62,770 bases of DNA from a virus. The stretch is taken from the IMG/VR virus record IMGVR_UViG_3300033571_013433, positions 1-62,770 of that record. The stretch is one strand, 5' to 3'. Position numbers and translations under genes: made by a program. The notes under the pieces are model-generated. The model did no database searches, was not told the DNA's origin, and saw nothing but the letters and a program-made list of their open reading frames with translations. Numbering within the stretch: the stretch's first letter is position 1; each line of letters starts with the position of its first letter. Of this stretch, positions 34,601 to 52,961 are shown piece after piece.

Positions 34601-36154
34601 ACCGGAAACGTTCGCAACGCACCCGGCTGGGTTCATGGACATTTCCAGACCAACACTGGCACCCTGGCTCAGCTCATTGCAGACACGGCGCCGGTCGTGA
34701 TGGCGCTGATTCGCGCTGGAGTGCCCGCCGAACTGGCAAACGGCGTCAAGTTCCGCGCCGGCATGAGCCAAGCCGAAGTTGTGCGGATGCTATATCAGGC
34801 AGCTCGACTTCACGGGCACAGCGGCGACGGTCGCTCGATTGATGTATTTGTGCCTGAAGGGACCAAAGTTCCTGTTCCTCTATCTGACGTGCGACCCGGC
34901 AGTGGTCGCGGTGGCGTTACCGGCGTTCTCCCTGGCAGTGGGCAGTCTTGGGTTGGGCATCTTGCCCGATCCTCTGTCTCCGGGGGCGCCCTCGCCAAAC
35001 CCGCCGTGGGTCAATTCGCTCAAGAACGCCGCGCCGCTGGCGATCAGTCCGGTGTTGCCAGGGCTGAGCAGGACTACAGGAACAAGCAGGCTGCCCTCGC
35101 GAAAGCGCGCGAAGGCCAGGCCGCCGAGGCAGCAGCGAAATGGGAGCTGCTCATGGTGCAAGATACCCAGTCCATGCGCGACAATACAACCTCAATCAAG
35201 GAAAACATTCAGCAGCTCCAGGACCGAACACGCCTGACACTGGAAGGATTTGGCCCCGAGTATGTCAACTCGCTGGTAGAGATCAACAGTCTCCAGCGCA
35301 AGAATAACGACCAAATCGCGATCTACAACCAAGAGCTAAAAGCGGCTCAGGCTTCTGGGCGCACTGACGACGTTGCGCGAATCACGGATCTCATTCGCAA
35401 CCAAACGGACGCCACTCGCGAAAACATCAACGCCATCAGGGAGCAGACGCGCGCCCAGCTTGAGGCGAACGAGGCCATGGGCAGAGGCTTCGGCTACCGC
35501 GAAGGCGCACGCCAGTACGTTGAGTCGATTGGCACGATGCGCGAAGCCACCGCCGAACTCGTCAATGGCGGCATCAAGGGTATTGAGGAATCCCTGTTTA
35601 GCCTTGCCACCACGGGGACTGCAAACTTCCGCGAGTTCACTGCCAACATTCTCAGGGATACAACTCGGATGATTATTCAGCAGTTCATCCTGAGGGCCTT
35701 GCTCAAGGCAGTTGGCTTCCTGGGCGGCGGTGGCGGTGGCGGCGGCATACAGGACGCTGTAAGCCCTGAGGCTTATTCAGTCGGCACCGGAGCCTCCATC
35801 TTCGCTGCGGCCAATGGCGCCGCTTTCGCCGGGAACGGTATTCAACTGTTCGCCAAGGGCGGCGTTGTCTCCGCGCCCAAGCTGTTCCAGTTTGCCAATG
35901 GCGGTGTCCCCGGCCTTGGCGTAATGGGAGAAGCCGGCCCCGAGGCGATCATGCCCCTTCGGCGCGGCCCCGATGGCCGCCTTGGCGTCAGCGGAGGTGG
36001 CGGCACGGTCAATGTGACAGTCAACGTGTCCGCAGATGGCAGCCAGCAGTCCGAGGCAAGCGGCGACAAGGCCGCACAGCTCGGTCGCGTTGTCGCCTCT
36101 GCTGTGCAACAGGAAATCATCAACCAGAAACGGCCTGGGGGGCTGCTCGCCTGA
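31673..36154 (+). CDS. Tape measure protein with embedded M23-like domain
   Basis: A 1493-residue protein that sets tail length. An N-terminal coiled-coil region (ELVSELNERIRNLDRGSELY in part) is followed at ~472-640 by the classic tape-measure domain (AELSKMQIALKANTTSAQEY, GTRGFTQLLAAVKGAGGTI, LRGQLAERLPGAVTLF). A second coiled coil lies at ~830-960. Residues ~980-1105 contain APGWVHGHF, HSGDGRSIDVFVPEGTKVPV and WVGHL, which recall LytM/M23 peptidoglycan peptidases and could open the wall. The end has the IKGIEESLFSLATTGTANF region and a Gly run. GTG start; the -1 chaperones lie directly upstream. Confidence 0.92.
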   Translation: MTADKRTIQFTIKADADVGSVAKFTKSLRELADSAPVTDKVIKAVREGILDFAKSGDVSTRTLESLQGALKKLQSEAKAGGPVYKQLGNDIADARRQLGQLTGTANATTEQLNRLLNAGAKPTFGGLSEQTARLNKELRDLKFRSEDYLRTLTRIKELETVGSFNQGRLNTIAANRAFMGATLNRGYGAPANLPGLPDTLAGDAQLVSELNERIRNLDRGSELYLQTVRELATAQAQAAASQAQLNRAVDGGAASFARINEVTLRRDAKLASIADYYASGNIAERRNDGFGDRPQAQQRGDGALIAPPYRTGNYTGMGDAGLGQFGPKTAGEVQAQIRPLEAAIQQAQQSLDQARDNAARRGAEQSARRSQLLNEVEDQLAAQQLAANKKRDDALLKDFDTRLENRVKRREARRQGLREFGQTATAVGVAGYFGGPEAVAGASLGAFFGPGGAQVGTTVGLAVGGLRQQIAGFSGQAAELSKMQIALKANTTSAQEYARSLNIIENANKQLNIPLQEGTRGFTQLLAAVKGAGGTINDAEIAYRAINSAIKANGGSTQDAEGAMRALVQTFSKGKVSAEELRGQLAERLPGAVTLFAKSIGMTGPELDKALEQGKVGLGDLMKFLVELEKRNYTTAERIAASQEEAGIRLQNKWNDVTLAIGKSFQGLGARIQDDLAKWLKANETSIAQWAKSFGDGIGFALDKLGALVNGLIQADKFLRQLKNPLGIFNPFEQGADPNFSTNNYWKSIGGDSQTRSQINSQLSDVKASIIELEKAKKEIWFPSMNQSRVSDLDARILQQRAKQARLETGLAASPASSPLAPSGLLVNNPADASRRKADAEAERQLRLAQAYADQQQKLLEARTDLEIRLADMVYQHKVDLANKEYERKRNIENMLAEAQIARLNPNQRNAAALLQQFRQFRSEQQDTIRVAEQALEAARRTLEAERRRAAVSAMAPAAIAPMMPSAGGGLATFGSTGNVRNAPGWVHGHFQTNTGTLAQLIADTAPVVMALIRAGVPAELANGVKFRAGMSQAEVVRMLYQAARLHGHSGDGRSIDVFVPEGTKVPVPLSDVRPGSGRGGVTGVLPGSGQSWVGHLARSSVSGGALAKPAVGQFAQERRAAGDQSGVARAEQDYRNKQAALAKAREGQAAEAAAKWELLMVQDTQSMRDNTTSIKENIQQLQDRTRLTLEGFGPEYVNSLVEINSLQRKNNDQIAIYNQELKAAQASGRTDDVARITDLIRNQTDATRENINAIREQTRAQLEANEAMGRGFGYREGARQYVESIGTMREATAELVNGGIKGIEESLFSLATTGTANFREFTANILRDTTRMIIQQFILRALLKAVGFLGGGGGGGGIQDAVSPEAYSVGTGASIFAAANGAAFAGNGIQLFAKGGVVSAPKLFQFANGGVPGLGVMGEAGPEAIMPLRRGPDGRLGVSGGGGTVNVTVNVSADGSQQSEASGDKAAQLGRVVASAVQQEIINQKRPGGLLA

Positions 36155-36855
36155 TGGCTGCGTTTGCTTTCTCGGTTGACTTCCCGGCATCAGAGTCATC
36201 TGCTCCGCGCGTTAATAAAGCTGACTTCGGCGGCTACGAGCAGCGTGTCACGCATGGCCTCAATCCCCTAGTTGAGAACTGGAGCATCCAGCTTGGCAGC
36301 CGCACCTTGACCGAGATCAGGGCTGCATCCATCTTCCTGGAAAACCAGCGTGGCACCACGCCATTTACGTGGACTACGCCATTTGGCGAGACTGGTCAGT
36401 TTGTCTGCTCCGAGTGGAGCGCCAGGCCGGAATCATTGAACCTGCTAACGCTCACGGCAGAGTTTGTGCTGACCTATGTTCCCGGCCAGTCCAACATCAC
36501 AAAGCCGGCAGCCCCCGGCTCTGCTTTTGCTTATTGCCACGATCTCGCCAGCTCTCGCCAGAGTGACAGCAACTCTAAGCTCGTGCAATTTGGCGATGGC
36601 TATGCTCAGCGTGTCACGATGGGCCTCAACCCGCAAACTACAATTCACAATCTTTCATTCCTGAGCCGCTCCAATTCAGAGCGCGATCTGATTCGTGCTT
36701 ATTTCAGAGGCGCGGCTGGCGTCCAAGCGTTCACCTGGACGGACCCCCAGACTGGAGCGACCGGCAAGTATGTTTGCCAGGACTGGAGCATTACCTATAA
36801 TAACTTCAATAATAATAACATTCAGGCGAAGTTCCGCCAGGTGTTTGAGCCCTGA
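36154..36855 (+). CDS. Minor tail protein, gpM-like, internally duplicated
   Basis: A 233-residue protein. Lambda-type gpM is about half this size. Two halves repeat the same pattern: GGYEQRVTHGLNPLVENWSI, then TTPFTWTTPFG and FVCSEWS; and GDGYAQRVTMGLNPQTTIHN, then VQAFTWTDPQTG and YVCQDWS. A tandem duplication of the phage minor-tail domain explains this. It is expected at the tail tip. It overlaps both neighbours by one base. Confidence 0.85.
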   Translation: MAAFAFSVDFPASESSAPRVNKADFGGYEQRVTHGLNPLVENWSIQLGSRTLTEIRAASIFLENQRGTTPFTWTTPFGETGQFVCSEWSARPESLNLLTLTAEFVLTYVPGQSNITKPAAPGSAFAYCHDLASSRQSDSNSKLVQFGDGYAQRVTMGLNPQTTIHNLSFLSRSNSERDLIRAYFRGAAGVQAFTWTDPQTGATGKYVCQDWSITYNNFNNNNIQAKFRQVFEP

Positions 36856-38525
36856 TGCCAGTACCAACATCTGAACTCCAGTCGGTATCGCCAACTTCTG
36901 TCATTGAGCTGTTTGAGCTGCAGCTTGTCACGGCTCTGCACGGCTCTGCCGACGTGTATAGGTATCACTCGGGCTCAAGCCTCAACCTGAGCGGCGTTGT
37001 TACGTGGAACAGCAATACCTACACCCGCTACCCCGTTGAAGCTGACGGCTTTGAGTATTCGGGCACGGGTCAGCTCCCCCAGCCCAAGCTGCGCGTTTCC
37101 AATATCGCTGGCACGATCACTGCGCTTTTGCTGATCGTCAACGGTGTAACACCCGGAAACGATCTCATAGGCGCAAAGGTTACGCGGATCCGCACACTGG
37201 CACGCTATCTCGATGCCGCGAACTTCCCCGCGCGGCGGAACCTCCTTCTCCGTACCGACGAGTTTGATCAAGCCGCCTGGACAAAAGTTCGCTCCGTGGC
37301 GACCGCAAGCGGGACCATTGGCCCATTCGGCGAGCCCACCGCCAAGCTTTTTCGCGAGGACTCAACAGCCAGCTCTACCCACTACGTTGAGCAGACCGTA
37401 TCTGGCTTGCTTTCCTCCACAGCGTATTCTTTCTCTGTCTACGCCAAGCCGGCCGGTCGTGACATTGTACGCCTTGAGCTGGTCGCCGGTACTGCATACT
37501 CGTCTACTCAGGCTGGCACGTTTGATATTGCGTCTGACAGGCTTCTGAGCACGACCGGAACCCCTACCGCCGCAGTCTCCGATGCCGGCAATGGCTACGC
37601 CAAGTGCTCTCTCACTGCAACCACCACGGGCGCTGGCAGCGTGACGGTGCGCATCTACCTCCAGGCCGCAGCAGGGAGTACCACCTACTCGGGCGATGGC
37701 GCCTCGGGTGTCACGCTGGCGGCGGCCCAGCTTGAGGCTGGCAGCGGCTCCGATTACCAGGCAATAGGAGCCTCTTTTTCGCAGAATCCATTTGGCACCC
37801 CCGATCCGACCGTCGAGTTTCCCCGTGAAATCTATTACATAAGCCAGAAAGTCAACGAAAACCGCGACTATGTTGAGTTCGCGCTTTCGGCTGCGTTTGA
37901 CCTACAGGGTGTGCGTGCGCCCAGAAGGCAGTGCATTGCAAATATCTGCCAGTGGGTCTACCGATCAACTGAGTGCGGCTACCTCGGCACAGCCTACTTC
38001 AATGAGAGTGATGTATCGGTCGGAAGTGCGGCATTAGATGTGTGCGGCAAGCGCACCTCAAGCTGCCGTATCAGGTTTGCGGCGAACTCCAATCTCTCCA
38101 CTGCCGGCACTAGCTCGACTCTTAATGCCGGCTCAACTCTTGCGTCCGGCAGCCAGCTTGTGTCCACGAATGGCTGGTATCGACTCGCAATGCAAACTGA
38201 TGGCAACCTTGTTCTTTATGACAAGTCTGGCCTCGTGCGTTGGTCAACAAGCACTAACCTTGCGGGAGCTTCGCGGTTGGTAATGCAAGCTGACGGCAAT
38301 CTAGTTGTCCTCCGCAATAGCGATAATGCTGTCATGTGGGCCAGTGGCACCGTGGGGTCCGGCGGCAACCGGCTTGTGCTGCAGACTGATGGTAACGCTG
38401 TGATTTACACCGCTGCCAACGTTGCTGTCTGGGCCACGGATACGGGCAACAACGGTGAGCCTGGCAACCCTGCAGTTGCGCTTCCATACGGCAGCTTCCC
38501 TGGCGTTGGATCGTATTTCTCGTGA
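36855..38525 (+). CDS. Minor tail protein gpL with inserted sugar-binding-type domain and bulb-type lectin
   Basis: A 556-residue gpL-like protein, more than twice lambda gpL. Residues 1-125 and ~310-405 are the gpL framework; the latter holds the Cys set CIANIC, ECGY, VCGK and SSCRIR that in gpL ligates an iron-sulfur cluster. Residues ~128-308 (RNLLLRTDEFDQAAW, YTFSV-like AYSFSVYAKPAG, GVTLAAAQLEAGS) are a jelly-roll module of the kind found in phage adhesins. Residues ~422-530 are a B-lectin: QTDGNLVLY, QADGNLVVL and QTDGNAVIY match the mannose-binding QxDxNxVxY motif. The gpL end (SFPGVGSYFS) resumes after it. Confidence 0.88.
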   Translation: MPVPTSELQSVSPTSVIELFELQLVTALHGSADVYRYHSGSSLNLSGVVTWNSNTYTRYPVEADGFEYSGTGQLPQPKLRVSNIAGTITALLLIVNGVTPGNDLIGAKVTRIRTLARYLDAANFPARRNLLLRTDEFDQAAWTKVRSVATASGTIGPFGEPTAKLFREDSTASSTHYVEQTVSGLLSSTAYSFSVYAKPAGRDIVRLELVAGTAYSSTQAGTFDIASDRLLSTTGTPTAAVSDAGNGYAKCSLTATTTGAGSVTVRIYLQAAAGSTTYSGDGASGVTLAAAQLEAGSGSDYQAIGASFSQNPFGTPDPTVEFPREIYYISQKVNENRDYVEFALSAAFDLQGVRAPRRQCIANICQWVYRSTECGYLGTAYFNESDVSVGSAALDVCGKRTSSCRIRFAANSNLSTAGTSSTLNAGSTLASGSQLVSTNGWYRLAMQTDGNLVLYDKSGLVRWSTSTNLAGASRLVMQADGNLVVLRNSDNAVMWASGTVGSGGNRLVLQTDGNAVIYTAANVAVWATDTGNNGEPGNPAVALPYGSFPGVGSYFS

Positions 38526-39244
38526 GCTGGCGCCCTCAGGCACTTGAGCACGCCAAGCAGGAGGCCCCGCGCGAATCCTGCGGGCTGCTTGTCATCGTCA
38601 AGGGCAAGGAGGTTTACTATCCATGCCGGAATGATTCGCTCTTAACTGAGCAGTTCATCCTTAACGCAGGCGACTATGCCAGAGCAGAGGACATGGGTGA
38701 GATCCTCGCCGTTGTCCACAGTCATCCTGCGATGCCGGCGGTTCCCAGCGAGGCGGATTTGATTGGGTGTGAACAAAGTGGGCTGACCTGGCACATTGTC
38801 AATCCAAATAACGAAGAATGGTGCGAGTTTTCGCCCAGCGGCTACAAGGCCCCCCTCGTCGGCAGGCAGTGGGTCTGGGCAGTAACCGACTGCTGGGCGC
38901 TCGTTCGCGACTGGTACGCGGAGCACGGCGTCATCTTGCGCGACTGGCAGCGCCCATCGACGCCAAGCGATTTTGACGCTAGCCCTATGTTCGCAGACTG
39001 CTGGCAGCGCACCGGGTTTCGTGAGCTTGAGCCTGACGAAGAACTCAAATACGGGGATGGGCTGCTTATGGCCATTGGCGGCGACCAGTTAAACCATATC
39101 GCTGTTTACGTTGGCGATGGGCTTGTGCTTCACCACCTCAGGCCGCGACTTTCTTCCATTGATATGTATGGTGGCTGGCTACAGAAGTCAACTGGACTTC
39201 GGATGCGTCATTATGCTTATGCGAGCTTGTCTGCTGTGAAATGA
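38522..39244 (+). CDS. Tail tip peptidase gpK-like (JAMM plus NlpC/P60)
   Basis: A 240-residue protein with two enzymatic domains. Residues ~1-110 are a JAMM metallopeptidase: ESCGLL supplies the Glu and HSHPAMPAVPSEAD gives the HxHP-S-x2-D zinc site. Residues ~115-240 are NlpC/P60: TDCWALVRDWY carries the nucleophilic Cys and NHIAVYVGDG the His. In lambda this protein acts at the tail tip, likely on peptidoglycan or on tail maturation. GTG start overlapping the gpL stop by four bases. Confidence 0.9.
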   Translation: MSWRPQALEHAKQEAPRESCGLLVIVKGKEVYYPCRNDSLLTEQFILNAGDYARAEDMGEILAVVHSHPAMPAVPSEADLIGCEQSGLTWHIVNPNNEEWCEFSPSGYKAPLVGRQWVWAVTDCWALVRDWYAEHGVILRDWQRPSTPSDFDASPMFADCWQRTGFRELEPDEELKYGDGLLMAIGGDQLNHIAVYVGDGLVLHHLRPRLSSIDMYGGWLQKSTGLRMRHYAYASLSAVK

Positions 39245-39804
39245 GGGCAATTCGCCTCTACGGGCAACTGGCTCGATTTATCGGAAAACGCAAGCTGCAG
39301 GCAGAAGTGGCCAACGCTGCCGAGGCAGTGAGATTCCTGGTCGTCAACTTCCCCGGTCTTGACGCGCACATGGCAGAACGCCACTACAAAGTAGAAGTCG
39401 GCGATACAGCCATTGGAACCGAAGAACTGCACTTTCCCAGTAGCGACTTAGAGGAAATCAAAATCATTCCGGTCATTGCTGGTGCTGGCGTTGTTGGGCG
39501 AATCATTGCGGGAGTGGCACTGGTGGCGCTCTCGTTTATCCCAGGTATTGGCGCCCTTGGGGTGTCTCTGCTGTTTGGTGTTGGCGCCTCGCTTGTGCTC
39601 GGCGGCGTCGCTCAGTTGCTGACTCCTGTGCCAGTGGCGCCTAAGGGGGCCGACTCTGATCGAAACCCGCGCCGAAGTTACAGCTTTAGCGGGATTCAGA
39701 ACGTCAGTCGGCAAGGCGTTCCCGTACCCATCTGCTATGGCGAGGCCCTTGTGGGCTCCGTTGTGATCTCGGCCGGTATTGACTTCGATCAGGTGGTGGC
39801 GTGA
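39241..39804 (+). CDS. Tail assembly protein gpI-like
   Basis: A 187-residue protein. The N-terminal ~80 residues have a ubiquitin-like pattern (IRLYGQLARFIGKRKLQAEV, AVRFLVVNFPGL), followed by a glycine-rich hydrophobic middle (GRIIAGVALVALSFIPGIGA, LFGVGASLVLGG) and the conserved end SRQGVPVPICYGEALVGS. This is the usual gpI layout. Four-base overlaps with gpK-like and gpJ-like genes. Confidence 0.9.
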   Translation: MRAIRLYGQLARFIGKRKLQAEVANAAEAVRFLVVNFPGLDAHMAERHYKVEVGDTAIGTEELHFPSSDLEEIKIIPVIAGAGVVGRIIAGVALVALSFIPGIGALGVSLLFGVGASLVLGGVAQLLTPVPVAPKGADSDRNPRRSYSFSGIQNVSRQGVPVPICYGEALVGSVVISAGIDFDQVVA

Positions 39805-42800
39805 GCAGGATCATTGGCGCTGGCGGCGGCGGTGGCGGCGGCAAGGGCGGCGGCGGCGCAAAGCAGCGCACGCCTCGCACGACTCCTGACGGCCTGGATA
39901 GCAAGGCATACGCCAAGGTCATTGACCTCTTGGGCGAGGGCGAGATCCAGGGCCTCAAGAATGGCGCCAAGTCAATCTTCCTGAACAATACGCCACTCCA
40001 GGCCAGTGACGGCTCATTCAACTTTCAGAACTTCACCTGGGAGACCAGAACCGGCACGCAAGCTCAATCGCATGTTGCAGGGTTTGACGAGGCACTCAAT
40101 GAACTGCTTGTCAATACCACGGTAACAAAGCCGACTCCAATCACCCGCACAATCACCCGTACTCAAGTTGATGCTGTACGCCTAACAATCACTGTTCCTC
40201 AGCTCCAGCGTATTGAAAACGATGGGGATATTCGCGGTGACGTTATTGATCTCCGAATTGAAACTAGGGCAAACGCCGGGGCGTGGGTAACGAAAATCAC
40301 CGATACGATTCGTGGCCGCACAGGCGACCCCTACCAGCGCGCCTACTTGGTTCCGATTGCAGGCCCTTTCCCGGTTGATGTGCGCGTTACCCGCCTGACC
40401 GATGACAGCACGAATCCAAAGCTCGTCAATGCTTTCACGTGGACAAGTTATACCGAGATTACCTATGTAAAACTTGCGTACCCGAACAGTGCGCTCGTTG
40501 CCATGAGGGTAGACGCTGAGCAGTTCAATAGCATTCCCCAGCGCAGTTACCTGATTCGTGGCATTAAGGTCAGGATCCCAAACAATGCGACGGTAGACTC
40601 CACTACGGGGGCTTTGATCTACTCAGGCGTCTGGAGCGGCACCTTCGGTGCGGCCCAGTGGACTTCCGATCCGGCCTGGTGTCTATACGATCTTCTTACT
40701 AGCAAGCGGTACGGCTTTGGCGCCTTTCTCAATGATGCGGTGCTCGACAAATGGGCCTTCTATCAGGCGTCTGTGTACTGCAGCGCGCTTGACACGCGGC
40801 CAGGCGGCACCACAAATGACTATAACGCCACCACCGGCAGGCATGGCGTGGCGGATGGTCTCGGCAACTTTGAGCCCCGCTTTAGCTGCAACGTCAATAT
40901 CCAGACAGCCGAAGAAGCATACAAGCTCGTCAATGATATGTGCTCGGTTTTCCGAGCAATGCCTTATTGGTCTGTTGGCGCATTGACGTTATCCCAGGAC
41001 GCTCCGACTTCACCGACTTACCTCTTTAACCTGTCTAACGTTGAGTCGCCTGGGTTTAACTACAGTGGTAGTTCTCAGAAAACCCGCGCAACCGTTGCAG
41101 TCGTCAAATACTTCGACAACAATCTCAGGGACTACGCCTATGAAGTCGTAGAGGATCAGAAAGGCATTTCCAAGTATGGTGTCTTAACAAAGGAAGTTGA
41201 AGCGTTTGCTTGCACGAGTCGCGGTCAGGCCCGTCGCCTAGGTGAGTGGCTGGTCTACGCGGAACTCAACGAAACGGAAGTGGTCTCATTCGCTGCTTCC
41301 ATTGAGGCTGGTGTCGTAGTGCGCCCTGGCCAGGTCATTTCTATCGCTGATCCGGCTCGATCTGGCGCTAGGAGGGGCGGGCGCATTTCATCGGCCACCA
41401 CAACCGCGATCACAGTCGATGACGCTACCGGGCTGACGCTGGGCACCACGCCTCAGCTCAGCGTAATTCTCCCTACTGGAGCCCTGGAAACCAAAGCGGT
41501 TAGCAGCATTGTTGGCAGCGTCATCACAGTGTCTAGCGCGTTTTCCGCCACGCCCAACGCCAACGCACCCTGGCTATTCCAGAACACCACCATTGTCCCA
41601 ACGACGTGGAGGGTGCTTTCGGTTCAAGAGCAAGATTCCTGCAAGTATGCAATTACCGCGCTTGAGTATGACAGCTCAAAGTATGCTTATGTTGAGCGGG
41701 GTGTTCCCCTGCAGAGTCAAGAGATCAGTGTTCTTAACCAAATCCCGCCTGCGCCAACAAACCTGTCATTCTCGGAAAGCCTTTACACCTACCAAAATGA
41801 GGTAAGGTCTAAGTTGTCGGCCGAGTGGCAGCCCGTCGAAGGCGTCGCAAGTTACCAAGTGCAGTGGCGAAAAGACAACGGTAACTGGAATATCGAGCAA
41901 GCTATTGGCCCTGTTTACGAGATCCTTGATGTTACGCCTGGTGTATTCGAGTTTCGTATCTACTCTCTGAATGCTGCTGATCTTGCATCTAGCACTTTCC
42001 TTTCCAGCTCGGTTACAGCCCTTGGCAAGACCGCTGCCCCGTCCAACGTCACGGGCTTTTTTGCCATCGTAGACCCCGAGATTGGCGTTACTCTCGTTTG
42101 GGACAAGTCGCCAGACCTTGACCTGCAGGGATATGAAATCTGGCAGGGCGTCTCCTGGGGCACTGGCACAGAAATCGGGCTATTCCAGACAACCTCGGCG
42201 AAGGTCGGGTTGCTGCCCTCTGGCACCGCAAGCTGGTGGATCAGGGCGCTTGACACTTCCGGCGCTTATTCAGCGTCAGCTACCCAAGCGACTGTCACGA
42301 TCAGCGGCGCCGCAGCGCCAACGGTCACGGGAGCGTTCAGTGGCGGCGACATTGAGCTGCGCTGGACCGATTCGGCTGGCACCCTTGCCACGCAATCCTA
42401 TGAGATCAGGTACGGCACAACCAGCTCCACCTGGGCGACGGCCACCGTTGCTGGTGCTGTTCAGGGAACTGTCTTTACAACCAAAGTCACCTGGGCCGGC
42501 ACTCAACGCTGGTTTGTTGCCGCGATTGACCTTGTTGGAAACTACGGAACCGCCGGCCAGTGGGACGGCATCGTTGCATCGCCAACCCAGCCAACCATTA
42601 CTCAGCAGGTAATTGACAATAACGTGCTGCTGCAATGGAATGATTGCACGCAAACGCTCCCCATTGACAGCTACGAGTTGCGTCGCGGCTCGACATGGGC
42701 AGGCGCAACGGTCGTCGGGACTAAGCAGGGCCGGTTCACCTCGGTTTTTGAGACGGTAGGCGGAACATTTACTTATTGGCTTGCCGGCATTGACTCGGCC

Positions 42801-43565
42801 GGCAACTATGGCACCCCTGGCTCGGTTTCGGCAGTCGTCAATCAGCCGCCGGACTATCAACTGCAGATGAATGCCAACAGCACATTCTCTGGTACGCGAA
42901 CAAACGTCGCCCTTGAGAATGGCCGGCTAGTTGCCGCTGTGAGCACGACCGAAACCTGGCAGTCTCATTTCACCTCCCGTGGCTGGACAACGCTCCAGAA
43001 CCAAGTGTCGGCCGGATTTGCCTATTACGGGATGCCATCGCAAACTACAGGCTCCTACGAGGAAACAATGGATCTCGGTAGCGTACTCGCGGGATCTAAG
43101 GTTACGGCTACCATCACAAGTCAAACAGTCGCGGGCGCCATCACAGTCACGCCGACTCTCAGTGTCCGCAAGCTGGTTACTGACGCCTGGACAAACTATG
43201 CCGGCGTTGATTCTGTATTTGCCACTGATTTCCGTTACATCAAAGTCCGCTATGACTTCGCCTCCGCTGGCGGCGATGATCTGTTTGTGATCTCAGCCCT
43301 TAACGTGCGAGTTGACGCCAAGCTGCGGAATGACTTCGGGACTGGAACTGCTAACTCGGCGGACTCGGGCGGCACTACTGTCACCTTCGGCGTTCCATTC
43401 GTTGACGTGCAATCTATCTCTGTCACGCCAGCAACAACGAGCGCGGTAATCGCTGTCTACGACTTTGTTGACGTTCCCAATCCGACTAGCTTTAAGGTGC
43501 TGCTGTTTAACAACTCCGGTACTCGGGTAAGCGGCAACTTTAGCTGGAGCGCAAGAGGCGTGTAA
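39801..43565 (+). CDS. Tail tip / host specificity protein gpJ-like
   Basis: A 1254-residue central tip protein. The N terminus has a Gly-rich start (GAGGGGGGGKGGGG) and the conserved YAKVIDLLGEGEIQGL and KSIFLNNTPL. The middle holds the hub-like barrel domains. From ~residue 640 to 1060 there are several fibronectin type III-like repeats (EWQPVEGVASYQVQWRKDNG; two close repeats with DSYELRRGSTW and ATQSYEIRYGTTS). The C-terminal ~180 residues should contact the receptor. It follows gpI and overlaps it by four bases. Confidence 0.92.
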   Translation: MSRIIGAGGGGGGGKGGGGAKQRTPRTTPDGLDSKAYAKVIDLLGEGEIQGLKNGAKSIFLNNTPLQASDGSFNFQNFTWETRTGTQAQSHVAGFDEALNELLVNTTVTKPTPITRTITRTQVDAVRLTITVPQLQRIENDGDIRGDVIDLRIETRANAGAWVTKITDTIRGRTGDPYQRAYLVPIAGPFPVDVRVTRLTDDSTNPKLVNAFTWTSYTEITYVKLAYPNSALVAMRVDAEQFNSIPQRSYLIRGIKVRIPNNATVDSTTGALIYSGVWSGTFGAAQWTSDPAWCLYDLLTSKRYGFGAFLNDAVLDKWAFYQASVYCSALDTRPGGTTNDYNATTGRHGVADGLGNFEPRFSCNVNIQTAEEAYKLVNDMCSVFRAMPYWSVGALTLSQDAPTSPTYLFNLSNVESPGFNYSGSSQKTRATVAVVKYFDNNLRDYAYEVVEDQKGISKYGVLTKEVEAFACTSRGQARRLGEWLVYAELNETEVVSFAASIEAGVVVRPGQVISIADPARSGARRGGRISSATTTAITVDDATGLTLGTTPQLSVILPTGALETKAVSSIVGSVITVSSAFSATPNANAPWLFQNTTIVPTTWRVLSVQEQDSCKYAITALEYDSSKYAYVERGVPLQSQEISVLNQIPPAPTNLSFSESLYTYQNEVRSKLSAEWQPVEGVASYQVQWRKDNGNWNIEQAIGPVYEILDVTPGVFEFRIYSLNAADLASSTFLSSSVTALGKTAAPSNVTGFFAIVDPEIGVTLVWDKSPDLDLQGYEIWQGVSWGTGTEIGLFQTTSAKVGLLPSGTASWWIRALDTSGAYSASATQATVTISGAAAPTVTGAFSGGDIELRWTDSAGTLATQSYEIRYGTTSSTWATATVAGAVQGTVFTTKVTWAGTQRWFVAAIDLVGNYGTAGQWDGIVASPTQPTITQQVIDNNVLLQWNDCTQTLPIDSYELRRGSTWAGATVVGTKQGRFTSVFETVGGTFTYWLAGIDSAGNYGTPGSVSAVVNQPPDYQLQMNANSTFSGTRTNVALENGRLVAAVSTTETWQSHFTSRGWTTLQNQVSAGFAYYGMPSQTTGSYEETMDLGSVLAGSKVTATITSQTVAGAITVTPTLSVRKLVTDAWTNYAGVDSVFATDFRYIKVRYDFASAGGDDLFVISALNVRVDAKLRNDFGTGTANSADSGGTTVTFGVPFVDVQSISVTPATTSAVIAVYDFVDVPNPTSFKVLLFNNSGTRVSGNFSWSARGV

Positions 43566-44881
43566 TGGCAAACTGGAGCAACCCGGTTCTCACAAGCACC
43601 TACACCAACTTTGTCACCGAGGTAAAGGACCGCGACGTTGATCTCGCGCTTGGCTTTGATGGTGTTACGCCAACAAACCTGCCTACAGGGGCGATCCGCT
43701 GGAATAGCAGTATCAGCCGCTGGCAGAAGTGGTCTGGCACTGCCTGGGGGGAGCTGGCCACTACCTACGCGCTAACAACGATCACGGCGACAGGCACGGT
43801 CACTGGTACGGCGCTGATCCCGTCCTCTAGCACTGTCCCGACCAACGGCGTCTACCTGCCGGCGACGAACGCTGTCGGCATTGCCACAAACAGCACTGGC
43901 AGGGCCTATGTTGACGCCACGGGCCGCTTGCTCATTGGCGCAAGCTCGATCCTTTCTTCGCCACCAGGCTCTGCCACCTCACTACTGCAGATTCGCTCGA
44001 CTGGTGATGATGCTGCGCTGATCTCGGGCGATAGCACAACTGGCCTCTCGATCAATGGCTACCTCACGTCGGCCACTGTCAAGAGTGTTCTCAACCTTAA
44101 CGGCGCGAGGGGCAGCCTTGCCTCGCCTGTCACCATTGCCAGTGGTGACGTAATCTCGGCAATTAACATGCGAGGTTGGGGTGGAAGCTCTTTCCTCGTT
44201 GGCGCAGCGACATACGCGGTTGCGGATGGAGCTTTCAGCTCAACCTCAGCCCCTACTCGGCTTGTTTTCCTCACCACTCCCTCTGGGAGCACAAGTCCGC
44301 TTGAAAGAATGCGGATTGAGGCTAGTGGCCGGATTCTGATTGGCCAGACCACAACTGCCTCCCCTGGATTTGGCAATACGACAACGGGCGTCGGTATTGA
44401 GCCGGACAATGGCGCACTCTTTCTTTCTCGTGCAGATGGCAACTTTGTCCTATCCCTTAACAGCAACCTTACTTCTGCTAGTACCGCAACGCATGTCAAA
44501 ATCCACCGCTCTGGTGTTGAAGTAGGCTCAATTTCGTCTGCGGCTGGCATTACCAGCTATGTCACGACTTCTGACTACCGCCTTAAGGAGAATATCGTTC
44601 CCCTAGGTGGTGCCATTGATAGGGTAAAAACCTTAAGCCCGTGTCGATACAACTTTATCTCAGCGCCTTCCGCCACGGTTGACGGCTTTCTTGCGCACGA
44701 GGTTCACAATGTTGTCCCCGAAGCGGTAGTTGGCGCGAAGGATGCGGTCGATCTGTCGAATAATCCTGTTTATCAGGGTATTGACCCTTCCAAGCTCGTT
44801 CCGCTCCTGACTGCTGCGCTAAAGGAAGCCGTCGCGCGCATTGAACAGCTTGAGGCTGATGTTGCCTCTCTCATGCCTTAG
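43565..44881 (+). CDS. Tail fibre with C-terminal intramolecular chaperone (peptidase S74)
   Basis: A 438-residue fibre. Residues 1-60 carry a short head (VDLALGFDGVTPTNLPTGAI, RWNSSISRWQKWSG) common to fibre proteins. From ~residue 334 comes the S74 chaperone: TTSDYRLKENIVPLGGAIDR, FLAHEVHNVVPEAVVG and a closing coiled coil (AALKEAVARIEQLEADVASL). In related fibres the chaperone trimerises and then cuts itself off before the conserved Ser. The ATG overlaps the gpJ stop. Confidence 0.88.
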   Translation: MANWSNPVLTSTYTNFVTEVKDRDVDLALGFDGVTPTNLPTGAIRWNSSISRWQKWSGTAWGELATTYALTTITATGTVTGTALIPSSSTVPTNGVYLPATNAVGIATNSTGRAYVDATGRLLIGASSILSSPPGSATSLLQIRSTGDDAALISGDSTTGLSINGYLTSATVKSVLNLNGARGSLASPVTIASGDVISAINMRGWGGSSFLVGAATYAVADGAFSSTSAPTRLVFLTTPSGSTSPLERMRIEASGRILIGQTTTASPGFGNTTTGVGIEPDNGALFLSRADGNFVLSLNSNLTSASTATHVKIHRSGVEVGSISSAAGITSYVTTSDYRLKENIVPLGGAIDRVKTLSPCRYNFISAPSATVDGFLAHEVHNVVPEAVVGAKDAVDLSNNPVYQGIDPSKLVPLLTAALKEAVARIEQLEADVASLMP

Positions 44882-47202: not shown

Positions 47203-47344
47203 GACAACGGCGCTGCATTTCGGCGATGCGGCCAGGAACGAGGTGCTCGCTTGAAACCGTGCTGGTGAACACGCCAACGGTGATGCGGATGCAGCCGTCA
47301 GGCAGGCGCGTGATTTGCGGCACAAGCATTGCGGCGCAGTGCAT
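47192..47344 (-). CDS. Small hypothetical protein, 50 aa
   Basis: Frame MHCAAMLVPQITRLPDGCIR followed by ITVGVFTSTVSSEHLV and a basic end. It begins just inside the divergent space with the recombinase gene. On the minus strand TATACT (47353-47358) lies upstream but without a matching -35. Modest support. Confidence 0.5.
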   Translation of the reverse strand: MHCAAMLVPQITRLPDGCIRITVGVFTSTVSSEHLVPGRIAEMQRRCHGS

Positions 47345-47410
47345 TCGATCAAGTATAGTCCGCTGTTACCCAACCCGAGGGCTTGTGCGACACGGCCTAT
47401 AGTCGCCCGA

Positions 47411-48694
47411 ATGGACGCACTAACCATTGGATACAGCCGTGTCAGCACCGCATCGGGCGAGCAGCTCAGCGCGTTACAGCGGCAGGTTTCGCGCCTAGAG
47501 GCCGCCGGCTGCGACCTGATTCTGCAGGACGTGGAATCCGGCCTCAACCAGCGCCGGCCCCAGTACCAGCAGCTTCGGCGCCTGGTAAAGGATGGGCGGG
47601 TGGCCCTGGTGCTCGTCACGGCGATCTCGCGCCTGGGCAGGAACGCGGCCGAGAGCGACGCATTCGTGGCCCTGTGCGACGAGCGGGGCGTGGCCTGCCG
47701 CTCCCTCTCCGAAGGCCAGCTCACCATGGCAACCCCCGAGGATCTGCTGCTGACGCGGCTCCGGGGCAGTCTCAGCCAGGGGGAGTCCATGCGCCTGAGT
47801 CAGCGCGTCAAGGCCGGGCTTGCGGAGGGGCGTCGGCATGGACGGCCCATGCGGAAACCGTGCTGGGGCTACCGACTGGCTGCTGATCGGTCGCGGATGG
47901 AGCCCGACCCCGAGCAGTGGCCGAGGGCGCAGGCGTTTCTGGAGAAGCTGCGAGGCAACAGCTGGCGGATGCTGCCGACCCTGCGCGAGAGTCCCGGCCT
48001 GTCGCCGTTCAAGTCATGCCGGGGCGTCCGGGCCTGGTTGCTGAATCCGACAATCCGTGGCGGGATTGGCTACGGGCAGCGGGCGAATCACGTGTTCGAT
48101 CAGATCACGTGGAGCCGGCACCCTGCGCTACTCAGTCACGCTGAGTTCACGGAAATGGAGCGCGTCATTGCGCACAACCGAAAGCTCTGGGGGCACAACT
48201 ACGGAACCATCCCCAGGATCCTGACCGGGTTGTGCGAGTGCGAGGAGTGCGGGTCGCGAATGTGCTACATCGCGGGCCGCACTCACCCTTCGCTCAAGTG
48301 TCGCGGCGAAGGGTGCAGTCAGCTCTACCGAAGCACGCGCGAAAGCGTGATCGTTTCTTATGTATGCGACCACTTGACCGTCGCCGCGGCTGAGCGATTA
48401 GCAGCGACGGTCAATCAGTCAGAGAGCGCGGAAGCGGCCGAGCTACGCCGACAGATCGTGCAGCTTGAGGCGATGGGTGACCCAGAACTGGCCGCCGCCA
48501 TCGCCGTCAAGCGGCAGCGGCTGGAGTCGGTACTAGCCGCGCCGATGGCCGATTCTGCGTTGATCGAGAAGCTGCGCGACCGCCGGTGGCTTGACCTGGC
48601 AACCGCCGATGAACTGCGCCTGATCCTGCAGCAGACCGTGGCAAGGGTTGTGATTGCCAAACAGGTGCCGGTGGCCATTCGTTTGCGGCTTTAG
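47411..48694 (+). CDS. Large serine recombinase (integrase-type)
   Basis: A 427-residue site-specific recombinase. The catalytic resolvase domain starts TIGYSRVST (nucleophile Ser about residue 12) and includes ISRLGRNAAESDAFV. Residues ~145-230 are the recombinase domain (RVKAGLAEGRRHGRPMRKP, WGYRL), followed by a zinc ribbon CECEECGSRMCYIAG and CRGEGC, and a helical C-terminal part. Enzymes of this build integrate temperate phages between attP and attB. The start at 47411 is the only good ATG; the frame is open 96 bases upstream. An attP site is expected nearby but cannot be read from one genome. Confidence 0.9.
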   Translation: MDALTIGYSRVSTASGEQLSALQRQVSRLEAAGCDLILQDVESGLNQRRPQYQQLRRLVKDGRVALVLVTAISRLGRNAAESDAFVALCDERGVACRSLSEGQLTMATPEDLLLTRLRGSLSQGESMRLSQRVKAGLAEGRRHGRPMRKPCWGYRLAADRSRMEPDPEQWPRAQAFLEKLRGNSWRMLPTLRESPGLSPFKSCRGVRAWLLNPTIRGGIGYGQRANHVFDQITWSRHPALLSHAEFTEMERVIAHNRKLWGHNYGTIPRILTGLCECEECGSRMCYIAGRTHPSLKCRGEGCSQLYRSTRESVIVSYVCDHLTVAAAERLAATVNQSESAEAAELRRQIVQLEAMGDPELAAAIAVKRQRLESVLAAPMADSALIEKLRDRRWLDLATADELRLILQQTVARVVIAKQVPVAIRLRL

Positions 48695-48862: not shown

Positions 48863-49197
48863 AGGTGACATGAAGCGCATAAAGGCTGCATGTTCTCCAA
48901 GGCCATGTTCCATGGGTCGCCGTCTATGTGGTGAATGTGAATCTGGTGATTGGTGCCGCACTCGCCGCATGTCAAAGGCATCCCTGCATTGATGTAGCGG
49001 CGACGACTGGCTGACCTCGCTCCACTTTCTCCGGTGTGTTCTCCGGGCCGTTTACTTGTTGCGCATCCTTCGCGGCAGAAACGGCGGTTCAGGAAGCGCG
49101 TGAGATCCTCAAGCCTGCCTCCGTAGCGACGCCTCTCAAACGTTTGCCCGCAGAACTGGCAGACCCTCGGCCCCGCGTCTACTGCTCTTCTTCCCAT
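48820..49197 (-). CDS. HNH endonuclease between two methyltransferase tails
   Basis: A 125-residue nuclease. CQFCGQTF and later FCREGC form one Cys pair set, and LTCGECGTNHQIHIHHIDGD with NMQPLCASCHLKHH is the HNH core with its CxxC zinc frame. The ATG overlaps the last 19 bases of the intact methyltransferase. The end runs into the methyltransferase remnant in another frame. Such genes are mobile; the flanking methyltransferase ends mark the insertion. Confidence 0.85.
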   Translation of the reverse strand: MGRRAVDAGPRVCQFCGQTFERRRYGGRLEDLTRFLNRRFCREGCATSKRPGEHTGESGARSASRRRYINAGMPLTCGECGTNHQIHIHHIDGDPWNMALENMQPLCASCHLKHHWATDRRASTA

Positions 49198-50108
49198 AGC
49201 CGCTTAACCCTTGCAAGTGGAATAGCTGCACACTGAGGAACGATTGTGTTGCCTAATGCCTTAAGTCTGTCCACCCTATTGGATAACCTTGCATCTCCTC
49301 TACGAAGGACGGGTTCAGATAGGTAGCCTCGCCAGTCTGGGGAGAGACGGTGTGAATTTCGCGGCCAAGTAGGCCGTTGCTGGGGACGTTCGCACAGGCT
49401 TGCGCTGAACCGTCCTTCCAGTCTCTGGTGGTCGACGTGGGCAGCATCCGGCCAATGACCGTCTCCAGATTTGGGAAACGCTCCCCTTTGAGGTTGCCCC
49501 TGCTGTTCACTGGTGTTGCCATGGCCGAACATGCTCGTGGCGTAGGCAGCATCCAGTCTTCCGTGTTGCTCAGTCCACGCTGTTTGCTGTTTCTCCCTCT
49601 CCGCCTGGTGTCGTGCGTCGTTGGCGTAGGCAACGCACCACCAGCGATCACGCCGGTGGCAGGCGCCCACATCTGATGCGCGTATGCACGCCCACTCCGC
49701 GTCATACCCTGCCTCGGCCAGCTCTCCGAGAACGGTGTCCAGTCCGTTAGAAAGGATCGCTGATACGTTTTCCAAGACAACGAATCTTGGTCGTACCAAG
49801 CAAACGACTCGCATGAGTTCATAAAACAGCCCTGATCGTGTGCCTTGTTTGATTCCCGCGCCCTTGCCAGCCCTTGATATGTCCTGACAAGGGAATCCGC
49901 CGCAGATAACATCGGCTATGCCCTGAGCAGGATTGTAAGTGCAAATGTCATCGTGAATAGGGACAGTAGGCCAGTGCTTACAGAGAACTTTTTGGCAGAA
50001 GGGGTCGCGCTCTACAAATTGCACGGTCTGGAACCCGCCGACTAGGTGCTCGGCAGCGTAGGAGAAGCCGCCAATCCCAGAAAATGTATCGAGCAAGCGG
50101 AGCGTCAT
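49179..50108 (-). CDS. DNA (cytosine-5) methyltransferase, phage type
   Basis: A 309-residue C5 methyltransferase unrelated in detail to the one at 363. Motif I is LLDTFSGIGGFSYAAE, motif IV CGGFPCQDISRAG with the catalytic Cys, motif VI VLENVSAIL, motif VIII GACHRRDRWWCVAYA and motif X RLKALGNTIVPQ. The region between VIII and X, which would choose the target sequence, is short and low in recognisable structure. Its DNA also encodes a long frame in another phase (49253-49912). ATGA coupling with the dNMP kinase gene upstream. Confidence 0.92.
   Translation of the reverse strand: MTLRLLDTFSGIGGFSYAAEHLVGGFQTVQFVERDPFCQKVLCKHWPTVPIHDDICTYNPAQGIADVICGGFPCQDISRAGKGAGIKQGTRSGLFYELMRVVCLVRPRFVVLENVSAILSNGLDTVLGELAEAGYDAEWACIRASDVGACHRRDRWWCVAYANDARHQAEREKQQTAWTEQHGRLDAAYATSMFGHGNTSEQQGQPQRGAFPKSGDGHWPDAAHVDHQRLEGRFSASLCERPQQRPTWPRNSHRLSPDWRGYLSEPVLRRGDARLSNRVDRLKALGNTIVPQCAAIPLARVKRLWEEEQ
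49253..49912 (-). CDS. Overlapping alternative-frame protein inside the methyltransferase gene
   Basis: A 219-residue frame lying wholly inside the methyltransferase gene in another phase of the same strand. Unlike a random frame it holds motifs that I recognise from separately annotated phage proteins: LSWKTYQRSFLTDWTPFSES, WPRQGMTRSGRAYA, two LPTPTT/LPTPRA units, and the end LNPSFVEEMQGYPIGWTDL. It may be a true overprinted gene, or the known family may itself descend from reading methyltransferase DNA out of frame. No start signal stands out. Confidence 0.35.
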   Translation of the reverse strand: MLSAADSLVRTYQGLARARESNKAHDQGCFMNSCESFAWYDQDSLSWKTYQRSFLTDWTPFSESWPRQGMTRSGRAYAHQMWAPATGVIAGGALPTPTTHDTRRRGRNSKQRGLSNTEDWMLPTPRACSAMATPVNSRGNLKGERFPNLETVIGRMLPTSTTRDWKDGSAQACANVPSNGLLGREIHTVSPQTGEATYLNPSFVEEMQGYPIGWTDLRH

Positions 50109-51135: not shown

Positions 51136-52101
51136 CTACAGATCGAAAAGGCTGGTCTGCGATGCGCCAGCTGGCGTAGCCACGGGTGCGGGGGCCGGCT
51201 GTGGCGTCCCCCGAGTGAGCAGGGTGCGGCAGCGACGCAGCGAGCGCGCTTCGATCTCCTGCAGGACAACCCGGCTTTTGCCCAGGCGCTCTTGCAGGTC
51301 AGACCAACGCTCAGGGTGCGGGCCATGCCGCGCCAGCAGAACCTCACGCGCCAGGGGTGACAGCGCCTCGGCAACGATGGCCTCCAGTCGCTCGGCCTGA
51401 TGGCTGGCGTCCAGTTCCTCAAGGCGCTCGTCAAGGGTCAGCGCGGCAGGGTCGGCGATGAACTCGCCCCTGGTGGCCTCGCCGTCACCGGCCTGGCCCA
51501 CGGGCTCGTCAAGGCTGCCGACGAACTGTGTTCGGCGGATGGCCTCTAGCAGCACGTCAAGAGGCACGTCGAGTCTCACCGCGATCTCGTCAGGCGACGG
51601 GTTGCGCCCCAGCTCGCGAGTGAGTTCTTCCCGTGCGCGGCTGATTTTGATGAGCTGGTTGTGAATTGGCAATGGCAACCGGATCAGGAAGTCATCCCAC
51701 TGGATTGCGTGCTGAATCGCCTGGCGGATCCACCAGTAGGCATAGGTCGAGAACTTGTAGCCCTTGCTCGGGTCGAACTTCTCCACGGCGCGGGCCAGGC
51801 CCACGTTGCCCTCCTGGATCAAGTCGGCTAGGTCGAGACTGCGACGATGCTGGCGGTAGCGTTTGGCCACGTCCACCACCAGGCGCAGGTTCGCCTCAAT
51901 GAATCTCTCCCTGGCGCGCAAGCCGCGTTTGATTTCGCGCTGCTCGTCAGGGGTGGGCGTGTAACCTGACGCATCCCGCGCCTTGAGTTCCTGCAGGCGC
52001 GCAATCAGCCGGCCCAGCTTGATTTCATCCTCGGCAGTCAGCAGGGGATACCGACTGAGCCGATCCAAGTAGGCGCGAAGGGCGGGATCCTGGCTGCTCA
52101 T
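51136..52101 (-). CDS. Sigma-70 family RNA polymerase sigma factor (first of two)
   Basis: A 321-residue SigA-like factor. Region 1.2 is DPALRAYLDRLSRYPLLTAE; region 2 is nearly canonical (EANLRLVVDVAKRY, DLADLIQEGNVGLARAVEKF, YKFSTYAYWWIRQAIQHAI), with RLPLPIHNQLIKISRA and ELGRNPSPDEIAVRL for region 3. Region 4 is present but diverged (SDLQERLGKSRVVLQEIEAR). Region 2.4 suggests a -10 like the host's; the altered region 4 suggests a different -35. A Pro/Ala tail ends it. It overlaps the second sigma gene by four bases. Confidence 0.93.
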   Translation of the reverse strand: MSSQDPALRAYLDRLSRYPLLTAEDEIKLGRLIARLQELKARDASGYTPTPDEQREIKRGLRARERFIEANLRLVVDVAKRYRQHRRSLDLADLIQEGNVGLARAVEKFDPSKGYKFSTYAYWWIRQAIQHAIQWDDFLIRLPLPIHNQLIKISRAREELTRELGRNPSPDEIAVRLDVPLDVLLEAIRRTQFVGSLDEPVGQAGDGEATRGEFIADPAALTLDERLEELDASHQAERLEAIVAEALSPLAREVLLARHGPHPERWSDLQERLGKSRVVLQEIEARSLRRCRTLLTRGTPQPAPAPVATPAGASQTSLFDL

Positions 52102-52961
52102 GCTGCCCCCTTCATCGTCAGTATCCGCCGCAGCTTGCGCTCGGCAGTGGCGATGCGCGAGGAAACGGCCTGATGACTGATGCCATGGGTGCGAGCCAGC
52201 GCCCGAATAGTGGGCTGCTCTGAGCCGTCAAGGCCATAGCGGGCCTCAATCAGGGTGCGTTCTTCGTCGCTGAGCGAGTTGATGGCACTGCGAAGAAAGT
52301 CGTAGTCGCTGACGGATGGCTGGCTGTTTTCGTCAGGGATATTGCTGATCCAGCTGTTATCGTTTTCAATGTGAGAGGCGTCAAGTGACGAGACCTTGCG
52401 GCACGCTAGGGCAAGCACCTGATAGTCCTCTAGCTTGACTTCGGCCCTCTCGGCGACCTCGGCTGCCCTGACGACCCTTCCCTCATGCGAGATCGCTTCT
52501 GCGGCGCGCTTGATCTTGCGCCACCGCTCCACCTGATGCTGTGGCGTGCGAATGAGCCTGTCGGCTTGATCCAATTCGCGAACCATGGCCTGACGGATCC
52601 ACCATGAGGCATAGGTCGAGAACTTGTAGCCGCGCTCAGGGTCGAACAGTTCAACGGCGCGGCGCAGGCCGATGATTCCAACCTGAACGAAATCGTCAAT
52701 CTCAAGAAACTCGGCGCGGTTTGCATACGGCTTGGCAAGGCTGACAACCAGGCGAAGATTGCAGTTCACCATGCGATCTGCGGCGGATCTCGACTTGCGC
52801 AAGATCGCACGCTCGCGAGGGGTGGGCTTGCGGTCGCCCAGTTGCTCGGTCAGCTCTGCGCCCGCCTTGTAGAGCCTGCTTAGCTCAATTTCTTCTACAG
52901 CGGTCAGCAGGGGCCATCGCCCGAGCTGATTCATAAACCAGTCAAAGCCGTTGCTGCGCAT
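52098..52961 (-). CDS. Sigma-70 family RNA polymerase sigma factor (second of two)
   Basis: A 287-residue factor. FMNQLGRWPLLTAVEEIEL is region 1.2; NCNLRLVVSLAKPYANR, FVQVGIIGLRRAVELFDPER and YKFSTYASWWIRQAMVREL form region 2; region 4 is well kept (TIRALARTHGISHQAVSSRI). It differs from its neighbour throughout, so the two are not a recent duplication and probably read different promoters. An acidic linker (ENDNSWISNIPDENSQPSVS) separates 3 and 4. The start overlaps the NblA-like gene by 20 bases. Confidence 0.93.
   Translation of the reverse strand: MRSNGFDWFMNQLGRWPLLTAVEEIELSRLYKAGAELTEQLGDRKPTPRERAILRKSRSAADRMVNCNLRLVVSLAKPYANRAEFLEIDDFVQVGIIGLRRAVELFDPERGYKFSTYASWWIRQAMVRELDQADRLIRTPQHQVERWRKIKRAAEAISHEGRVVRAAEVAERAEVKLEDYQVLALACRKVSSLDASHIENDNSWISNIPDENSQPSVSDYDFLRSAINSLSDEERTLIEARYGLDGSEQPTIRALARTHGISHQAVSSRIATAERKLRRILTMKGAA

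Follow-up and report, generated by a model that had tools for sequence, protein, structure and literature searches.

A bulb-type lectin and a jelly-roll module inserted into a gpL-like tail-tip hub protein of an uncultivated phage

Results

Gene context of the gpL-like protein

The viral DNA analysed here, a stretch of 62,770 nucleotides (IMG/VR record IMGVR_UViG_3300033571_013433, positions 1 to 62,770), is referred to as the window at its full length. It carries tail genes in the order M-L-K-I-J, as in phage lambda, with overlapping starts and stops, together with a separate tail fibre gene:

36154–36855, plus strand: gpM homologue (PF05939, in two stretches)
36855–38525, plus strand: gene of the gpL-like tail-tip hub, 556 aa including two inserted modules (PF05100, E 1.1e-50; phrog_18, 7e-74)
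38522–39244, plus strand: gpK homologue (JAB + NlpC/P60, Pfam)
39241–39804, plus strand: gpI homologue (phrog_32, 1.6e-49)
39801–43565, plus strand: gpJ homologue, the central fibre (phrog_31, 2.5e-241)
43565–44881, plus strand: separate tail fibre with an S74 chaperone (PF13884, 1.9e-8)

The gpL-like ORF forms one uninterrupted frame. Phage_tail_L (PF05100) matches it in two stretches flanking the insert, our own gpL HMM matches it at 2.8e-121, and the two pieces of the core jointly cover nearly all of the gpL profile. The PHROGs assignment, minor tail protein, is in agreement with Pfam. Together with the gene order and the presence of all four Fe–S cysteines, the Pfam match confirms the gpL identity proposed in the initial annotation. 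The neighbouring gpM homologue consists of two tandem copies fused into one protein, with 34% identity between the halves (2.6e-18). The gpM of lambda builds a ring of six members in two conformers at a threefold tip, and three fused gpM dimers would form the same ring with the alternation hard-wired.

Domain organization of the window gpL

The gpL core is interrupted at two of the discrete insertion points, here called sockets, that are seen among its relatives: socket 1 follows the hub domain, socket 2 lies between Cys 2 and Cys 3 (C374–C397) and is empty in the window gpL, and socket 3 follows Cys 4. Within the gene the following features are found:

36855–37229, plus strand: residues 1–125, gpL N-terminal hub (HDI) domain (gpL HMM, 9e-61)
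37230–37778, plus strand: residues ~126–308, socket 1, carbohydrate-module-type jelly roll (Rcc01080, 4e-18; fold matches)
37779–38081, plus strand: residues 309–409, gpL second half with the Fe–S domain (gpL HMM, 1e-56; second PF05100 stretch)
37947–38066, plus strand: codons of the Fe–S ligands C365, C374, C397 and C404 (invariant in 37 aligned gpLs)
38082–38459, plus strand: residues 410–535, socket 3, bulb-type (B_lectin) domain with short linkers (PF01453; own lectin HMM, 4e-32)
38193–38219, plus strand: lectin site 1, QTDGNLVLY, perfect, residue 447 (sequence)
38286–38312, plus strand: lectin site 2, QADGNLVVL, Y to L, residue 478 (sequence)
38382–38408, plus strand: lectin site 3, QTDGNAVIY, perfect, residue 510 (sequence)
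38460–38522, plus strand: residues 536–556, gpL C-terminal clip, LPYGSFPGVGSYFS (conserved in all aligned gpLs)

Residues 12–347 of the predicted model superimpose on lambda gpL (8iyk_L) with a Z score of 15.7 when the insert is skipped. The 9-23-7 spacing of the Fe–S cysteines is that of lambda Cys173, 182, 205 and 212 (PMC10721106). The Fe–S region itself (residues 349–417) has a pLDDT under 50, and the placement of the lectin on the core is likewise of low confidence; a further prediction for the Fe–S domain, made with gpLs that lack a lectin, reached a mean pLDDT of 56 and was rejected.

The jelly roll at socket 1 is bounded by the end of the hub domain (...LDAANFP) and by NPFGTPDP. Residues ~127–298 are homologous over about 170 residues to the head-spike fibre Rcc01080 (6tb9) of the Rhodobacter capsulatus gene transfer agent (RcGTA), at 4e-18, and a weaker sequence match is found to tail fibre gp17 (2e-9). 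The fold, modelled with a pLDDT mostly of 60–85, resembles the tail fibre of phage Pa193 (9b45, Z 15.5), an alginate-binding CBM (8zqf, Z 14.2), 8env (Z 13.6; like 9b45, from phage baseplate or fibre chains), CBM4 (Z 11.9) and CBM61 (Z 11.4). Tagged Rcc01080 was reported to bind capsule-bearing cells (PMC10218006). In view of this binding, the Rcc01080 homology and the CBM-like folds, the assignment of a second sugar-binding-type module in the initial annotation is well founded by homology and agrees with both sequence and fold.

The insert at socket 3 is recognized by the B_lectin profile (PF01453) at E 4.5e-8, with 34.0 bits against a curated cut-off of 32.4, and matches solved bulb lectins and pyocin L1 with E values down to 1e-23. 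The lectin proper comprises three repeats (residues ~418–533), starting after the last Fe–S cysteine at CGKRTSSCRIRF and ending before LPYGSFPGVG of the clip, and sits exactly between CxxRF and the LPYGSFPG that represents the conserved LPxGSFPG end of gpL. A tryptophan follows each motif by 16–17 residues (W463, W495 and W526). In the AlphaFold model of the whole protein, the lectin has a local pLDDT of about 89 and superimposes on gastrodianin (1xd5_D) over 108 residues with a Z score of 19.0, an rmsd of 1.0 Å and 44% identity. These results bear out the earlier description of a complete three-repeat B-lectin with two perfect QxDxNxVxY sites, inserted at residues ~410–535 between the Fe–S cysteine region and the last residues, and the structure prediction that it had called for yields a gastrodianin-like fold. 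A lectin-like bacteriocin (LlpA) identity was ruled out, as there is one lectin domain within gpL and not a free-standing pair of tandem domains with a short C-terminal extension.

Sugar-contact residues are conserved among gpL lectins

In repeats 1 and 2, the sugar-contact positions (Q, D, N, V and Y) have a mean entropy of 0.55 bits across 51 gpL lectin domains, compared with 1.82 elsewhere; an entropy as low was reached in 1 of 20,000 random draws. At least one perfect motif is present in 74 of 76 gpL-lectin ORFs. This is the pattern expected under selection for binding, though the motif partly serves the fold.

Bulb lectins occupy several sockets of gpL in uncultivated phages

Relatives were collected by scans of IMG/VR with profiles; an exact-peptide-pattern scan of viral sequences with the window lectin alone gave no relative, such patterns being too narrow. 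In these relatives gpL is a fixed chassis with discrete insertion points. Most gpLs have all sockets empty and measure about 246 aa. The search for gpL–lectin fusions in other phages, also recommended in the initial annotation, returned at least 76 distinct ORFs among the matches listed. In these 76, the lectin lies in the Fe–S loop (socket 2) in 69, at the N-terminus in 2 and at socket 3 in 1, the window gpL, with 4 fragments. A later scan added one further socket-3 case at a contig end, L335, whose lectin is 52% identical to that of the window, with the same linker and junction; among the matches listed, the window and L335 are the only gpLs with a lectin after Cys 4.

The sockets accept other payloads as well. 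Jelly rolls at socket 1 are also found in L001, L002, L093, L330 and L331, socket 2 carries other payloads in L012, L074 and L094, and socket 3 carries unrelated beta-rich payloads in L069, L097, L130 and L330. The non-lectin payloads include coil-like, E1_FCCH-like and beta-repeat modules.

Among the best 80 loci of a gpL-seeded lectin scan, 57 had the lectin in gpL; a scan seeded with non-gpL lectins, from which the best 80 were kept, gave 38 of 79 loci, all at socket 2. Both values describe best-80 lists and are not frequencies. Among best matches, gpL is the commonest home of the bulb lectin in IMG/VR.

Several variants of this arrangement were observed. Many socket-2 lectins (L009, L053, L064, L076 and others) contain an extra domain of ~130–150 aa between repeats 2 and 3, so that in the L009 type a domain is nested in a lectin, which is nested in the Fe–S domain of gpL. 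The gpLs of L152, L182, L210, L217 and L221 (940–975 aa) have four to six lectin matches in tandem in the Fe–S loop, and a single chain can hold as many as nine perfect QxDxNxVxY motifs. L177 (3995–5215) and L178 (3977–5041) carry a complete bulb lectin at the gpL N-terminus, on the tube-facing hub domain and not on the Fe–S domain. The marine virus AG-345-A17 (L172) has, by eye, a possibly cupredoxin-like insert at socket 1 of an ORF starting at about 2977; its Fe–S domain is apparently mostly missing, and it may be an amplification chimera. Bulb lectins also occur in other tail-type proteins (L184, L192, L194 and L216), among them a DUF1833 protein, two proteins of 841–1015 aa with an N-terminal lectin and a gpI/gpJ-like protein of 1463 aa. 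L185 has one in a glycosyl-hydrolase-like protein.

Repeated gain of the lectin

In a tree of the gpL core built without the insert columns, the socket-2 lectin gpLs form one group (84–87%), and the window gpL falls among gpLs without a lectin (99% support, or 97% when more rows are included). This group includes L097, which has another payload at the same socket 3. Given its position among lectin-less gpLs, the window lectin is, as far as the core tree can tell, a separate gain. L335 falls in a different, well-supported group of lectin-less gpLs, and forcing the window and L335 into one clade was not rejected (AU p 0.059). The N-terminal-lectin gpLs (L177 and L178) represent a further lineage. 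The socket-2 group, the window lineage and the N-terminal lineage together indicate that a lectin joined gpL at least three times. In a tree of the lectins themselves, which is weakly resolving at 79 columns, the window lectin groups with an N-terminal gpL lectin (87%, unstarred); this grouping was set aside.

PF01453 was found in 0 of 101 genomes from the order of a related cyanobacterial MAG, in a search of limited sensitivity that detected 3 of 4 known lectin carriers in a control. Within this sensitivity, the result lends no support to a recent host gene as the source of the lectin, and no origin is assigned to it.

Cultured phages and the literature

The cultured set comprised 50,697 records, of which 1,257 had a gpL by tblastn. 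Lectin queries (tblastn) found no lectin in gpL in any of these 1,257 records; in the whole set they hit four Pseudomonas records only, none of them in gpL. These are free-standing bulb-lectin genes in Pseudomonas phages Riah (OR351070), Hali (PQ533658) and Pacha_bin_1 (PQ533669) and in OQ658367. The lectin gene adjoins the repressor in Riah and is close to the integrase in Hali; such genes are possible lectin-like bacteriocin cargo of temperate phages.

The earlier claim that lectins are rare at this place can accordingly be divided. It holds for cultured phages and fails for the environment, where gpL is the commonest carrier among the best matches. As to the exact position, environmental gpL lectins mostly lie in the Fe–S loop, and the placement after the Fe–S domain is shared by the window and L335 alone among the matches. 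The literature searched, from which subscription papers were mostly absent, yielded no bulb lectin in a phage tail, and an earlier description is possible; it likewise yielded no gpL bulb lectin, no recurrence in several sockets, no tandem lectin arrays and no pairing with a head-spike-type jelly roll.

Predicted host and other genes of the window

Among cultured phages, the closest head genes belong to Synechococcus phages S-CBS1 and S-CBS3, with 67–76% DNA identity over short stretches, and the group-2 sigma factor of the window is 43% identical to its S-CBS1/S-CBS3 counterparts; both agree with the cyanobacterial host assumed in the initial annotation. In addition, S-LBS1 gives the terminase match with the best coverage, and the window gpL core is matched at 72%, in the best segment, by the gpL of a MAG labelled Cyanobacteria. 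As judged from these relationships, a picocyanobacterial host is well supported. Picocyanobacteria of the kind infected by S-CBS1 and S-CBS3 are single-celled, and a classical sheath is not known as one of their traits. The fit to a cyanobacterial sheath suggested earlier is a guess, and glycans of the lipopolysaccharide, capsule or S-layer are equally possible ligands.

Two adjacent sigma-70-family genes lie at 51136–52101 and 52098–52961 (minus strand), the first being similar to the group-2 sigma genes that S-CBS1 and S-CBS3 carry. An ORF at 47315–48694 (plus strand) reads like a large serine recombinase, which suggests a temperate phage. The ORFs at 363–1466 and 49179–50108 (both minus strand) read like cytosine-5 DNA methyltransferases.

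Discussion

A candidate glycan adhesin on the tail-tip hub

In lambda, gpL forms a trimer under the tail tube with the Fe–S domain on its outer surface, where the function of this domain is unexplained (PMC10721106). By homology, the core of the window gpL would assemble in the same way, and foreign sugar-binding modules would have been spliced into permissive loops of this core: the jelly roll after the N-terminal hub domain, and the three-site bulb lectin between the last Fe–S cysteine and the C-terminal clip. Based on the outer position of the lambda Fe–S domain and on the inserts in the hubs of RcGTA and roseophage R4C (see below), we infer that three lectins and three jelly rolls surround the tip, so that the three gpL copies would present six to nine lectin sites. 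The lectins and jelly rolls may then bind a host-envelope glycan of mannose-like or deoxy-sugar type in a weak, multivalent and reversible manner, and after this first contact the gpJ fibre and the S74 fibre would commit the virion. We therefore consider it probable that the window gpL is a structural hub doubling as a glycan adhesin, present in three copies per tail tip, with exposure, sugar binding, the ligand and a part in adsorption all being predictions from homology and the model. This reading is favoured by the intact gpL core, the complete gastrodianin-like lectin, the conserved contact positions, the occurrence of lectins at three gpL positions with a separate gain in the window, and the capsule-cell binding of Rcc01080. 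The degenerate middle site (Y to L) argues against this reading, and B-lectin folds that do not bind sugar exist, such as curculin. Since gpJ and the S74 fibre are other likely receptor binders, the lectin may also be dispensable.

The same degenerate site would fit inserts that are decorative or architectural, that is, beta-rich modules that stiffen, pad or mask the tip without meaningful sugar binding, their fold being kept for stability. The coil-like, E1_FCCH-like and beta-repeat payloads in the same sockets of relatives also fit, because they imply that a socket needs no sugar binder. We nevertheless regard this explanation as unlikely, as conservation in the gpL lectins is highest at the sugar-contact columns and the jelly roll, with its CBM-like fold, belongs to a family that includes a capsule-cell binder. 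Less likely still is a lectin that binds the environment or other particles, such as mucus, an exopolysaccharide matrix or phytoplankton aggregates, and thereby holds virions where hosts are dense. An analogous proposal exists for Ig-like domains on capsids, weak multivalent binding would be compatible with such a role, and the lectin–gpL fusions come only from uncultivated phages, with none in the cultured records searched; yet the site at the tail tip favours contact with the host over capsid-style decoration.

An assembly or frame artefact, for example a gpL gene joined chimerically to a host lectin gene, might be suspected in a single uncultivated contig, all the more as B_lectin was not found in the 101 genomes noted above. 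This explanation was rejected and has a negligible probability: the frame runs without interruption to the conserved gpL C-terminus, the GC and GC3 of the lectin match those of its flanks, L335, an independent contig, shows a lectin at this junction too, and many contigs have lectins at other sockets.

Beyond the adhesin reading of the window gpL, we tentatively suggest a wider one, in which we have less than even confidence: gpL might be a general socket protein whose Fe–S domain serves as a rigid, outward mounting block for swappable sugar-binding modules, above all bulb lectins. It would offer at least four insertion points, namely the N-terminus, socket 1, the Fe–S loop and the post-Fe–S position. 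Environmental siphophages could then have plugged in such modules repeatedly, with the lectins single, interrupted or in tandem runs of four to six, and tuned adsorption without changing gpJ. If true, this would give a role to the conserved, functionally unexplained Fe–S cluster of gpL.

Bulb lectins are familiar from plant defence and from lectin-like bacteriocins, where they do the binding. In dozens of uncultivated phages they are built into the tail-tip hub, with three distinct positions represented. Provided that the lectins are functional, they would form an adhesion layer on the hub itself and not on the fibres. They would also provide a testable answer to the question of the exposed gpL Fe–S domain left open in the lambda structure paper (PMC10721106). 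Few phage receptors are established among the envelope glycans of cyanobacteria and other aquatic bacteria, and the gpL lectins represent a compact natural library, with predicted contact residues, for probing these glycans.

Comparison with known systems

Our comparison reveals that lambda gpL (PF05100; 8iyk chain L) and the window gpL share the hub domain, the four-cysteine Fe–S domain with the same spacing, the C-terminal clip and the M-L-K-I-J gene order, whereas the lambda protein, at 232 aa, is free of inserts and the window gpL is enlarged by two further domains, together about 300 aa. The lectin shares the three-repeat fold, the QxDxNxVxY motif and one tryptophan per repeat with the monocot mannose-binding lectins such as gastrodianin (1xd5), but those are plant defence lectins, while the window lectin is part of a predicted virion protein. 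The bacteriocins LlpA and pyocin L1 illustrate a bacterial use, in which B-lectin domains grip an envelope glycan (D-rhamnose of LPS); LlpA consists of two tandem lectins without a tail part, whereas the window has a single lectin inside gpL. The B-lectins of the Pseudomonas phages lie near an integrase or repressor where annotated and not in tail genes, in contrast to the window lectin.

A parallel is found in the evolved Dit and Tal proteins of phages of Gram-positive hosts, in which carbohydrate-binding modules are inserted in a conserved tail-tip scaffold. The principle is the same as in the window gpL, although the scaffold has no Fe–S domain and the modules differ. The relative of the jelly roll in RcGTA, Rcc01080, is a separate fibre on the capsid, while the window jelly roll is inserted in the tail-tip hub.

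Sugar-binding inserts in tail-tip proteins, even in Fe–S hubs of the gpL type, are already known. The hub proteins of RcGTA (Rcc01696) and of roseophage R4C combine, like the window gpL, an Fe–S hub with a proposed sugar-binding insert, which is an oligosaccharide-binding domain of 82 residues within the Fe–S domain, at socket 2 (PMC7296036, PMC10276861). By comparison, the window gpL has a bulb lectin after the Fe–S domain, at socket 3, and a jelly roll at socket 1; in RcGTA terms, its lectin lies between the ion-binding and clip domains.
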